A program made the translations under genes and the position numbers. The notes beneath the pieces are model-generated. The model worked only from the letters and a program-made list of their open reading frames with translations. It was not told the origin of the DNA and did no database searches. This document shows, piece after piece, positions 23,567 through 46,223 of a DNA stretch of 64,000 bases. Source of the stretch: Melioribacter roseus. Its GTDB lineage: Bacteria; Bacteroidota; Ignavibacteria; Ignavibacteriales; Melioribacteraceae. How positions within the stretch are numbered: the first letter of the stretch is position 1; the number at the start of each line of letters is the position of its first letter. The stretch covers positions 254,674-318,673 of the forward strand of contig DYHH01000001.1 of NCBI GenBank assembly GCA_020724265.1, in the 5' to 3' direction.

Positions 23567-24013
23567 ATGCTCACAGAATTCGGTAAAATATTCATATTTC
23601 TCTTACTTGCAATAGGATTTGTCGGAATAGCCCTATTCGCTGCTAAACTTATCAGACCCCATAGACCAACTAAGGAAAAACTTCTTATTTATGAATGCGG
23701 TGAAAACGTCGAAGGTTCTCCTTGGGTAAAATTTAATATTAGGTTTTACGTAGTTGCCTTAATATTTCTGATCTTTGATGTGGAAGTTGTTCTGCTTTTT
23801 CCCTGGGCTTTAACTTATCAAGAATTCGGATTTTATGGTTTTTTGGTTGGAGTAATATTTCTTTTAATTTTAGGTCTTGGCATGGCATACGAATGGCGAA
23901 AAGGTGATTTAAATTGGGACAGAACAAAACCGAATATTCCTGAGCTCTCCAAAATCTTAACCAATAAAAATGTTTCAAACGTAAAAATAGACGAACAAAT
24001 TAAAGAAAGTTAA
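23567..24013 (+). CDS. nuoA: NADH-quinone oxidoreductase subunit A
   Basis: 148 residues from the ATG at 23567. An upstream in-frame TTG at 23516 would add 17 polar residues (starting TFEQGCTIF), unusual for NuoA, so I prefer the ATG. Three membrane helices flank the conserved loop [20 protein letters not shown], and the second helix carries [12 protein letters not shown] with its conserved Asp and Glu. NuoA sits in the membrane arm next to the quinone site. It is the first gene of an 11-subunit operon that runs to 34391. Confidence 0.95.
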
Positions 24014-24020
24014 TTTCTAT

Positions 24021-24512
24021 ATGGGTTTACTTGACCAACAATTTTCGGATAGTAACATTGTAATAACTAAAGCAGAAGATTTAATGAACTGGGCAAGATT
24101 GTCATCGCTCTGGCAGCTTGGTTTTGGTCTTGCCTGCTGTGCAATAGAAATGATGGCAACTTCAGCTTCTCATTATGATTTTGATAGATTTGGTGTAATA
24201 CCGAGACCTTCACCAAGACAAAGCGATATAATTATTATTTCCGGAACTGTAACTTTGAAAATGGCATTGAGAATAAAAAGACTTTATGAACAAATGCCTG
24301 ATCCAAAATATATAATTTCAATGGGAAGCTGCTCAAATTGCGGCGGTCCTTATTGGGAGCATGGATATCATGTCTTGAAAGGAGTCGATAGAGTTATTCC
24401 GGTTGATGTATTTGTGCCGGGGTGTCCTCCGCGTCCTGAAGCTTTGTTGGAAGGATTACTTAAGCTACAAGAAAAAATTAGAATGGAAACTTTGAGAAAA
24501 AAATCAGTATGA
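24021..24512 (+). CDS. nuoB: NADH-quinone oxidoreductase subunit B
   Basis: 163 residues. Cluster N2 ligands are visible as LACCAIEM (Cys39, Cys40), GSCSNCGG and PGCPPRPEA. NuoB carries the last iron-sulfur cluster before quinone and belongs to the connecting module. The gene lies 7 bp after nuoA and shares 4 bp (ATGA) with nuoC. The length matches typical NuoB. Confidence 0.97.
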
Positions 24513-25039
24513 AAAAAGCCGAAGCTATTTTTGAAATACTAAAAAATAAATTTCCAGATGCCGATATTCAGATCGATTCGGAAACACCAACAGAACCTAT
24601 AATTTCAATTCCTCCCAAAAGAGTTTATGACATTTCTCTTTTCTTAAGAGACGAAGAAGGATTGTTATTTGACAGTTTAATGTGTTTATCAGGTGTTGAT
24701 GATGCTAACGGTGAAAAAATTAAACAAGAAGATGATTCCGAAATTATTAAAGGCGGAACTCTTAGTGTTTATTATCATTTATATTCAGTTTCCTTAAAAC
24801 ACAAGGTAACAATTAAAACTTCTGCAGATAGAGAGAATCCCGAAGTCGATTCTGTTGAACCTGTCTGGAAAACAGCAGATTGGCATGAAAGAGAAGCATA
24901 TGATATGTTTGGAATTATCTTTCTTAATCACCCTAACCTGCAAAGAATTCTAATGCCCTATGATTGGGATGCAGGCTATCCATTAAGAAAAGATTATAAA
25001 AATCCTGAATTTTACAAAGGCATGAAGGTTCCTTATTAG
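24509..25039 (+). CDS. nuoC: NADH-quinone oxidoreductase subunit C
   Basis: 176 residues. The family signature is [13 protein letters not shown], followed by [23 protein letters not shown]. NuoC is a peripheral-arm subunit that packs against NuoD. It is not fused to NuoD as in E. coli. It overlaps nuoB by 4 bp. The next nuo gene starts 468 bp later because a foreign-looking cassette lies between them. Confidence 0.95.
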
Positions 25040-25043
25040 ATAT

Positions 25044-25069
25044 AAGTATCAAGATATGAGTATCAAGAT
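25044..25069. repeat. Left inverted repeat of the nuo cassette
   Basis: A 26-bp arm starting five bases after the nuoC stop. It reads as heptamer units AAGTATC, AAGATAT, GAGTATC, AAGAT. It pairs with 25471-25496 with two mismatches. Confidence 0.85.
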
Positions 25070-25097
25070 TATTTCAAAAAAAATAAGGATTTAGTTT

Positions 25098-25460
25098 ATG
25101 CATAATTTCAAAGAGTTAAAAATTTGGCAGGATTCAAAGAATCTTGTTATAGATATTTATAAAAAAACCGAAAATTTTCCTAAAGAAGAAATTTTTGGTC
25201 TAACAAATCAAATTAGGAGATCGGCAGTTTCAATTCCTTCTAATATTGCTGAAGGATGCGGGAGAAATTCAGATAAGGATTTAATTAGGTTTATAGATAT
25301 TGCAAATGGTTCATCTTTTGAATTGGAAACACAATTAATTATTGCACATGAACTTGGTTATGTGGATGAAGAAGACTTTAGATATTTTGACGACAAATTG
25401 AGTGAGATACAAAAAATGAATTACGGTTTCAGAAACAATTTAATTAATAAGACAAATTAA
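25098..25460 (+). CDS. Four-helix-bundle (S23/23S rRNA intervening-sequence) protein
   Basis: 120 residues. It shows the family pattern: FKELKIWQDSKNLVIDIY at the start, LTNQIRRSAVSIPSNIAEGCGR in helix 2, FIDIANGSSFELETQL in helix 3 and ELGYVDEEDF before helix 4. Homologues were first seen within 23S rRNA intervening sequences and also occur as stand-alone genes. They are related to the bAvd accessory protein of diversity-generating retroelements, which binds nucleic acid. A ribosome site (AAGGAT) precedes the ATG. The gene is flanked by inverted repeats inside the nuo operon and has no expected role in complex I. Confidence 0.9.
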   Translation: MHNFKELKIWQDSKNLVIDIYKKTENFPKEEIFGLTNQIRRSAVSIPSNIAEGCGRNSDKDLIRFIDIANGSSFELETQLIIAHELGYVDEEDFRYFDDKLSEIQKMNYGFRNNLINKTN

Positions 25461-25470
25461 CTTACTTAGT

Positions 25471-25496
25471 ATCTTGATACTTACATCTTGATACTT
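25471..25496. repeat. Right inverted repeat of the nuo cassette
   Basis: This 26-bp arm is the reverse complement of 25044-25069 apart from two positions. It ends 11 bases before the nuoD ATG, so the repeat, not a clear Shine-Dalgarno sequence, occupies the nuoD leader. A third partial unit (GATACT) continues toward nuoD. Confidence 0.85.
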
Positions 25497-25507
25497 GATA
25501 CTGACAA

Positions 25508-26623
25508 ATGGCGATAAAAACTGAAGAAATGGTATTGAATATGGGACCTCAGCACCCTTCTACTCATGGGGTTCTGCGGCTCGAATTGATTCTTGAAGGT
25601 GAATTGATTGTTGATGTAAAACCTCATGTCGGTTATCTTCATCGCTGTTTTGAAAAGCACTGCGAAGCAATGACTTATCCCCAGGTTGTCCCTTACACTG
25701 ATAGGATGGACTATCTTTCTTCAATGTACAATAATTTCGGATATGCAGTTGCTGTGGAAAGATTACTCGGAATTGAGGTACCGGAAAGAGTTGAATACAT
25801 TAGGGTAATTATGGGTGAGTTACAACGTATCGCATCCCACCTTGTTGCCATCGGGACTTATGGACTTGATATAGGAGCGTTTACCCCCTTCTTATATTGC
25901 TTTAGAGATAGAGAAAGAATTCTTAGTTTATTCGAAATGACATGCGGTGCACGATTACTCTACAACTATATTTGGGTCGGAGGTTTATCGCATGACCTGC
26001 ATCCCGATTTTGTAAGACTAACCCGTGATTTTCTAAATGACTTTAAGCCCACAATTAAAGAATTAAACAATCTTCTCAGCTACAATAAAATTTTCATTGA
26101 AAGAACTGCTAATGTTGGAGTGCTTCCGCTAGATACCGCAATAAATTATGGAATGACCGGTCCAAATCTACGTGCGAGCGGTTTAGCTTTTGATTTAAGA
26201 AGAGAAGATCCGTATTCCATTTATGACCGTTTTGATTTTAATATTCCCGTTGGTGAAGGAACTCACGGTACTGTCGGTGATTGCTGGGATAGATATTATG
26301 TTCGTGTTCTTGAAATGTACGAAAGTATAAGAATTATTGAACAAGCTTTGGATAAGTTACCGGAAGGTGATGTCACTTCTGCAATTCCGAAAAGAATAAA
26401 ACCGCCGAAAGGAACTATTTATACAAGAGTGGAAAATCCCCGGGGTGAACTTGGTTATTTTATAATTAGTGACGGATCATTAAATCCTTTTAGAGTAAAA
26501 GTAAGGGGTCCTTCTTTCATTAGTCTGGAATTAATGGGTGAACTTTGTAAAGGACATCTTGTTTCCGATGTGGTTGCAGTATTAGGAAGTATTGATATAG
26601 TTCTAGGCGAGGTTGATAGATAA
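25508..26623 (+). CDS. nuoD: NADH-quinone oxidoreductase subunit D
   Basis: 371 residues. Signatures are MGPQHPSTHGVLRL near the N-terminus, PHVGYLHRCFEK, and the C-terminal VLGSIDIVLGEVDR. NuoD forms the quinone pocket with NuoB and NuoH; the conserved His in PSTHG is part of it. The protein is close to the normal length for an unfused NuoD. Its leader is unusual because it is the outer end of the inserted cassette. It abuts nuoH with no gap. Confidence 0.96.
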   Translation: MAIKTEEMVLNMGPQHPSTHGVLRLELILEGELIVDVKPHVGYLHRCFEKHCEAMTYPQVVPYTDRMDYLSSMYNNFGYAVAVERLLGIEVPERVEYIRVIMGELQRIASHLVAIGTYGLDIGAFTPFLYCFRDRERILSLFEMTCGARLLYNYIWVGGLSHDLHPDFVRLTRDFLNDFKPTIKELNNLLSYNKIFIERTANVGVLPLDTAINYGMTGPNLRASGLAFDLRREDPYSIYDRFDFNIPVGEGTHGTVGDCWDRYYVRVLEMYESIRIIEQALDKLPEGDVTSAIPKRIKPPKGTIYTRVENPRGELGYFIISDGSLNPFRVKVRGPSFISLELMGELCKGHLVSDVVAVLGSIDIVLGEVDR

Positions 26624-46116: not shown

Positions 46117-46129
46117 AATTTCCTTTTAA

Positions 46130-46223
46130 TTCTTAATCCTAATCATGCTCTTAATCTTAATCGCTTTCAATAAATATAAAATCATATTGAGATAAAGATT
46201 AAGATTATGATTAAGAGTAAGAT
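46130..46223. repeat. Large inverted repeat made of degenerate GATTAA hexamers
   Basis: The right arm (46191-46223) reads in 6-bp steps GATAAA, GATTAA, GATTAT, GATTAA, GAGTAA, GAT. The left arm (46130-46162) is the inverse, with units GATTAA, GATTAA, GAGCAT, GATTAG, GATTAA. Between them TCAATA (46167-46172) pairs with TATTGA (46185-46190), so the whole region can fold as one long imperfect hairpin. It lies between the E2 gene and lipA, contains no reading frame, and resembles the arms of the nuo cassette in design but not in sequence. Confidence 0.65.

Follow-up and report, generated by a model that had tools for sequence, protein, structure and literature searches.

Between nuoC and nuoD in the complex I operon of Melioribacter roseus lies a small, selfish-looking one-gene cassette that, judging from its sequence, is probably an mRNA-borne member of the element type known from the intervening sequences (IVSs) of rRNA. 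Elements of this type combine one IVP/S23 gene with two inverted arrays of element-specific 7-9 bp units. Arms of this design, each built on its own short word, flank genes of the IVP family across many bacterial phyla.

Anatomy of the nuoC-nuoD cassette

The junction lies in a 64-kb stretch of DNA, which was analysed as a whole and is called the window here. From the left to the right, it is organized as follows.

24509..25039, + strand: nuoC, the upstream host gene (from the list of open reading frames)
25036..25069, + strand: left arm, a degenerate 7-mer array with a 14-bp super-period, inverted partner of the right arm
25098..25460, + strand: IVP/S23 four-helix-bundle gene, 120 aa (PF05635, TIGR02436; profile matches to 2gsc and 2rld)
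25464..25503, + strand: right arm, an inverted array of the 7-mers of the left arm that fills the nuoD leader (outer limits approximate)
25508..26623, + strand: nuoD, the downstream host gene (from the list of open reading frames; junction compared in relatives)

The distance from the end of nuoC (25039) to the start of nuoD (25508) is 468 bp, whereas the remaining nuo junctions among those listed measure 0-14 bp or overlap. An earlier note on this DNA, made from the letters and their reading frames, had called this gap exceptional and assigned to it one gene for an S23/four-helix-bundle protein, and both statements hold. The only ORF between nuoC and nuoD (25098-25460, 120 aa) encodes a protein that matches PF05635 (23S_rRNA_IVP) with an E-value of 4.9e-42 and TIGR02436 (four helix bundle protein) with an E-value of 2e-40. 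Such an S23/IVP ORF is typical of large rRNA IVSs. By profile, 2gsc and 2rld are its solved relatives, of which 2gsc is reportedly an assembly of five four-helix bundles. Purifying selection acts on the IVP protein, with dN/dS values of 0.07-0.16.

The 26-bp inverted repeats previously noted at both ends of the gap were confirmed at 25044-25069 and 25471-25496, with 24/26 complementary positions over 26 nt each. Among inverted pairs with arms within 1 kb, these arms form the top pair of the window (score 20; next unrelated pair 15). They consist, as had been described, of degenerate heptamers, and the arrays extend further than the earlier note had said, on the left from 25036. Read as 7-mers from this position, the left array runs TTAGATA, TAAGTAT, CAAGATA, TGAGTAT and CAAGAT, with the nuoC stop codon TAG (25037-25039) inside the first 7-mer. 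The right array stops a few bases short of the nuoD ATG. The cassette is thus placed exactly from the nuoC stop codon to the nuoD start codon. An influence of the right arm on nuoD translation, as suggested in the earlier note, would be speculative; without the cassette, the native nuoD leader is very short. The strongest self-match at this site is at a lag of 14, which points to two alternating heptamers.

The cassette sits in a protein operon, outside any rRNA gene. A search of 24000-26500 against Rfam matched no known RNA, and scans for promoters and terminators remained at chance level. In the predicted fold of the cassette transcript, the arms are paired with a minimum free energy of -103.5 kcal/mol, compared with -83.0 kcal/mol for shuffled sequences (z -3.9). 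This prediction agrees with the suggestion, made in the earlier note, that the arms could pair in the mRNA around the inserted gene.

In this reading, the cassette would be transcribed together with its host operon, and arm pairing in the transcript would loop out the IVP frame, so that the end of nuoC and the beginning of nuoD come to lie next to each other. RNase III may then cut the stem and release the IVP RNA, as with rRNA IVSs; arguing by analogy, we give such cleavage of the arm stem slightly less than an even chance. The cost to the host operon would presumably be low, and the IVP protein may bind the DNA or RNA of the arms. Copying to a new place would need an enzyme of the host or one acting in trans.

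Arrays around IVP genes and their placement

The host genome contains eight IVP matches, seven of them above the family cut-off, and short tandem units surround each of these seven loci, the unit being different at each. The earlier note had proposed a search of this genome for further copies with the same heptamers. Like arms do recur, but normally with another unit and around another IVP gene.

The sample comprised 91 IVP loci from the bacterial family of the host and another 80 from genomes elsewhere, which span many phyla; most of the genomes analysed are drafts or MAGs. The collection was scanned with the narrower of two alignments, the wide one being too diverse. Most of the genes in both sets sit between inverted tandem arrays. 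In the 91 family loci, self-similarity at lag 7 reached 11.8 upstream and 10.7 downstream of the gene, compared with 3.8 in control stretches 500 bp away, and the runner-up, lag 8, reached only 6.2 and 6.5. Lag 7 was the best lag in 63% of these IVP flanks but in just 6% of the controls. The 80 loci from other genomes gave lag-7 values of 13.9 upstream and 12.2 downstream versus 4.0 in controls; a minority of their elements is built on 8- or 9-mers, often with both arms alike.

The repeat unit is element-specific and common to both arms of one element. The two arms of an element were a better match than combinations of arms from different elements, with a permutation p of 5e-5 for the nuo site. 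Duplex energies compared with flanks 600 bp away were confounded by base composition, and shuffled controls were therefore used. Against these, the predicted duplex of own arms showed a mean z of -2.5 in both locus sets, whereas control flanks yielded -0.2 and -0.4. Only about half of the loci passed z < -2, indicating that many arms are weak, short or decayed.

In the host family, the median onset of the left array lies 2 nt ahead of the upstream stop codon, with 60 of 69 onsets located between -25 and +10 of this codon. The stop codon of the upstream gene is TAG in 45% of the family loci and 52% of those in other phyla; in a comparison set, a 400-kb sample of a congener, TAG ends 16% of the long reading frames. 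At the nuo site, nuoC ends with TAG in 18 of 19 occupied but only 4 of 36 empty junctions. The IVP gene is co-oriented with both neighbors in 131 of 150 loci and opposed to both in three. The onset of the array at the upstream stop codon together with the sense orientation means that the upstream gene, the element and the downstream gene run from stop to start. The sense bias could result from selection alone.

Variations in this placement were observed at individual loci. In genome G048 (L055), nuoD apparently begins inside the right arm, so that the 7-mers would add residues to the N-terminus of NuoD; the open frame has 401 aa. At L082 and L093, the downstream gene has its first in-frame ATG ahead of the right array, which is seemingly translated as an N-terminal extension. 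Solitary arrays of the nuo unit GTATCAAGAT, each lacking an inverted counterpart, occur at L353, L355 and L357 in G000, the genome that includes the window, and at L350 and L356 in G003. Some of these lone arrays begin at the stop codon of a gene, which suggests that they are relics of half elements.

Distribution and probable mobility of the cassette

We read more than 60 nuoC-nuoD junctions and found 19 with the cassette, approximately 36 cleanly empty, and several with decayed remnants (L049, L052, L057, L060). This junction in close relatives had been proposed as the place to look, and the comparison showed that the cassette is patchy in the family, being absent from some members including congener G001, and that it is not limited to the host genome. 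The empty junction of G001 reads ...CCGTATTAATGGCTC, and in congener G002 the cassette occupies precisely this position. A target-site duplication is not visible between these two, the sole close pair of an empty and an occupied junction at the nuo site. Because the cassette recurs at nuoC-nuoD in many genera, it is not a recent random insertion.

At the nuo site, the comparison of element and flanking DNA was too saturated to decide, and protein trees were used instead. The inference of horizontal movement rests on IVP trees built on about 108 protein columns. A single clade for the IVPs of the nuo site was not rejected (p-AU 0.49). When the topology of NuoC+NuoD was imposed on the IVP data, it was rejected with a delta lnL of 213 and a p-AU of 8e-6; rejection was equally strong in the opposite direction. 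The IVPs of the host sisters G092 and G093 were rejected as sisters (p-AU 0.0018), while the test for G000 and G002 yielded a p-AU of 0.072 only. The IVP of G000 is 81% identical to that of G026 from another genus, compared with 76% for host proteins, and 76% identical to that of congener G002, compared with 92% for host proteins. The conflict between the IVP and NuoC/NuoD trees indicates that the element moved between genomes independently of its neighbors. The synonymous sites of the IVP comparisons are saturated, so these transfers are not recent. Over all sites, the nearest IVP relative lies between the same flanking gene pair in 35 of 52 loci (22 of 39 outside nuo), with clear exceptions in which one junction is used by differing elements.

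For elements at different sites, the arms resembled each other less the more distant their IVPs were, similarity dropping from 3.9 to 1.4 (Mantel p 0.0025). Arm units hence track IVP relatedness even at different sites, which indicates that the arms move along with the gene they flank. Gene and unit are passed on as one, and the drift of the unit is common to both arms. The overlap of the arrays with the last codons of the upstream gene had raised the idea that the target supplies the unit, which we set aside as arm units follow IVP relatedness across sites; a local adjustment of the unit at the stop codon may occur. Strict homing to one site is too simple a model, since the ABC-2 permease junction hosts differing elements.

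From these comparisons we infer that the cassette is probably mobile, independent of the flanking genes. The earlier note had proposed a non-autonomous mobile unit. The discrete one-gene cassette and its mobility are supported by the empty site in the congener, the tree conflict and the arms that travel with the gene. Neither of the two observations that the note had named as refuting it was made: the cassette is missing from part of the relatives, and arms of this kind recur in the genome, though normally with another unit. A simple MITE-like unit with a single fixed end is not supported: no target-site duplication is visible, and our searches found neither a transposase partner nor another mobility enzyme for the cassette.

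The ABC-2 permease junction (L334 compared with L332, L333 and L335) is a shared insertion hot spot. In G001 and G002 it is occupied by an IVP element. G005 has an IVP with a different unit there, together with an older array, and G000 has a hairpin of the CACAGA type (the GxxExxY type described below) that carries no gene.

The window also contains a gene-less hairpin at 46119-46222, with inverted arrays of a 6-bp-type unit (GATTAAG-like). Approximately nine GATTAAG-like hairpins are dispersed in the genus, and their unit is common to the IVP element of L025 and a remnant at L322. These hairpins look like a MITE-like derivative family. Multicopy gene-less hairpins with the unit of one IVP element fit the mobility of arm-defined units.

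MITEs, or miniature inverted-repeat elements, share with the IVP elements the small size, the inverted ends and gene-less multicopy derivatives with shared ends. Unlike MITEs, the IVP elements have element-specific tandem arrays as ends and carry a conserved gene, and no target duplication was seen at the one close pair. As a MITE-type DNA element, the cassette would have its arrays read as ends at the DNA level by a transposase or recombinase in trans, with IVP as cargo or as an accessory DNA-binding subunit. Inverted ends, the several dispersed gene-less copies carrying the unit of one IVP element and the precise occupied and empty junctions would suit such an element. We nevertheless consider it rather unlikely, because the end sequence and even the unit length vary between elements, unlike the ends of a fixed transposase, target-site duplication is not seen and the sense bias is strong.

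Known systems, remaining alternatives and a possible wider class

The reading that we prefer, an mRNA-borne element of the rRNA IVS type, draws on the 23S rRNA IVSs of Leptospira and Coxiella burnetii (PMC4990558). As in these, there is one IVP/S23 ORF of about 120 codons, the inverted terminal repeats form a stem of about 26-28 bp, and the distribution is patchy with presumed horizontal spread. In the Coxiella IVS, the S23 ORF is preceded by tandem GACAGAT heptamers, and a 28-bp stem and RNase III cleavage have been described (PMC4990558); the nuo cassette likewise has tandem heptamers beside its ORF. Unlike the rRNA IVSs, it lies in a protein-coding operon from stop to start codon, not in an rRNA helix, and its excision by RNase III is putative. 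The Coxiella ORF is reported to be decaying (PMC4990558), in contrast to the purifying selection on the nuo-type ORF.

IVP ORFs also occur among the rRNA insertion sequences of CPR bacteria (PMC11270868). Unlike the nuo cassette, these insertions lie within rRNA genes and mostly carry homing-endonuclease ORFs, and tandem arms are not mentioned. TAACTGA heptamers, found in intergenic regions of Beggiatoaceae, cyanobacteria and some Bacteroidetes (PMC4679880), resemble the IVP arms in being tandem intergenic 7-mers but differ in using one fixed heptamer, nearly always direct and upstream of genes; we found no link to S23 or intervening sequences in that paper. IVP is also among the abbreviations explained below a figure about CRISPR-linked proteins (PMC10910872). 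Our literature search, with most subscription journals and preprints outside its reach, found no account of IVP tandem arms, stop-to-start placement or an mRNA-operon habitat, and the novelty of these features is therefore provisional.

Avd of diversity-generating retroelements (NF033474) belongs to a related four-helix-bundle family, and homology between Avd and PF05635 has been reported (PMC10053308). The window IVP matches the Avd model weakly (E-value 2.3e-5; 24.7 bits, below the cut-off of 80 bits). An Avd-related IVP might assist a reverse transcriptase acting in trans, by which the RNA of the element would be copied into further operon junctions, and besides this homology the sense bias and the structured RNA would fit such retro-movement. 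Unlike in Avd systems, however, no reverse transcriptase, template or variable repeat adjoins the cassette, and a reverse transcriptase adjoins none of the elements examined. Congener G002 (one contig, 99% complete) has ten IVP matches but no match to RVT_1, and the same search found none in G001; the two RVT_1 matches of G000 are on contig C14, the window being on C56. Retro-movement appears more doubtful still than a DNA element.

Domestication of the IVP gene as a regulatory or otherwise functional part of the complex I operon, for example tuning nuoC/nuoD expression, would explain its presence at the same junction in 19 genomes and the purifying selection at the dN/dS given above. The approximately 36 junctions without the cassette and the several decayed ones, an IVP history at odds with that of NuoC/NuoD and the identical design in many unrelated operons make this very improbable. 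Coincidence, with simple repeats prone to slippage in the gaps next to an otherwise ordinary operon gene, can practically be dismissed: single arms are short and degenerate and simple repeats abound in these genomes, but the lag-7 excess (also at 8-9) on both sides of IVP genes is missing in controls 500 bp away, and own arms match each other.

Genes of a second type, GxxExxY (PF13366/TIGR04256), were observed between inverted arrays in the host's bacterial family (L272-L301, e.g., L272, L285 and L296, and L261:7002-7394). Their array units are about 10-11 bp long and CACAGAG- or CGCAAAG-like. Own arms scored 20.6 compared with 12.5 for swapped arms, with weak periodicity at any single lag. 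L261 (G002, 1585001-1605000) is a polysaccharide biosynthesis locus in which most gaps between genes are packed with short tandem arrays, and it carries IVP, GxxExxY and nucleotidyltransferase genes.

Tentatively, a so far unrecognised class of mobile elements that lack a transposase might have the IVP and GxxExxY elements as its two branches. In place of fixed end sequences, both would carry inverted, element-specific arrays (7-9 bp and apparently about 10-11 bp units, respectively) that co-evolve with the carried protein. The elements would settle from stop to start in operons, with the rRNA IVSs as the best-known special case.

To our knowledge, S23/IVP proteins have been regarded for three decades as passengers of 23S rRNA without an assigned function. 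Most members of the family sampled here reside in operons of protein genes, each within an element that can be recognised and whose boundaries and insertion rule, from stop codon to start codon, can now be given, and the Coxiella heptamers are tied to this general design. RNase III processing of mRNA operons at the arms and binding of IVP to its own unit have become testable, as has the means by which an element with just one gene and no recognisable mobility enzyme reaches new sites. The arm design of IVP elements may also account for many unexplained heptamer arrays in environmental genomes.
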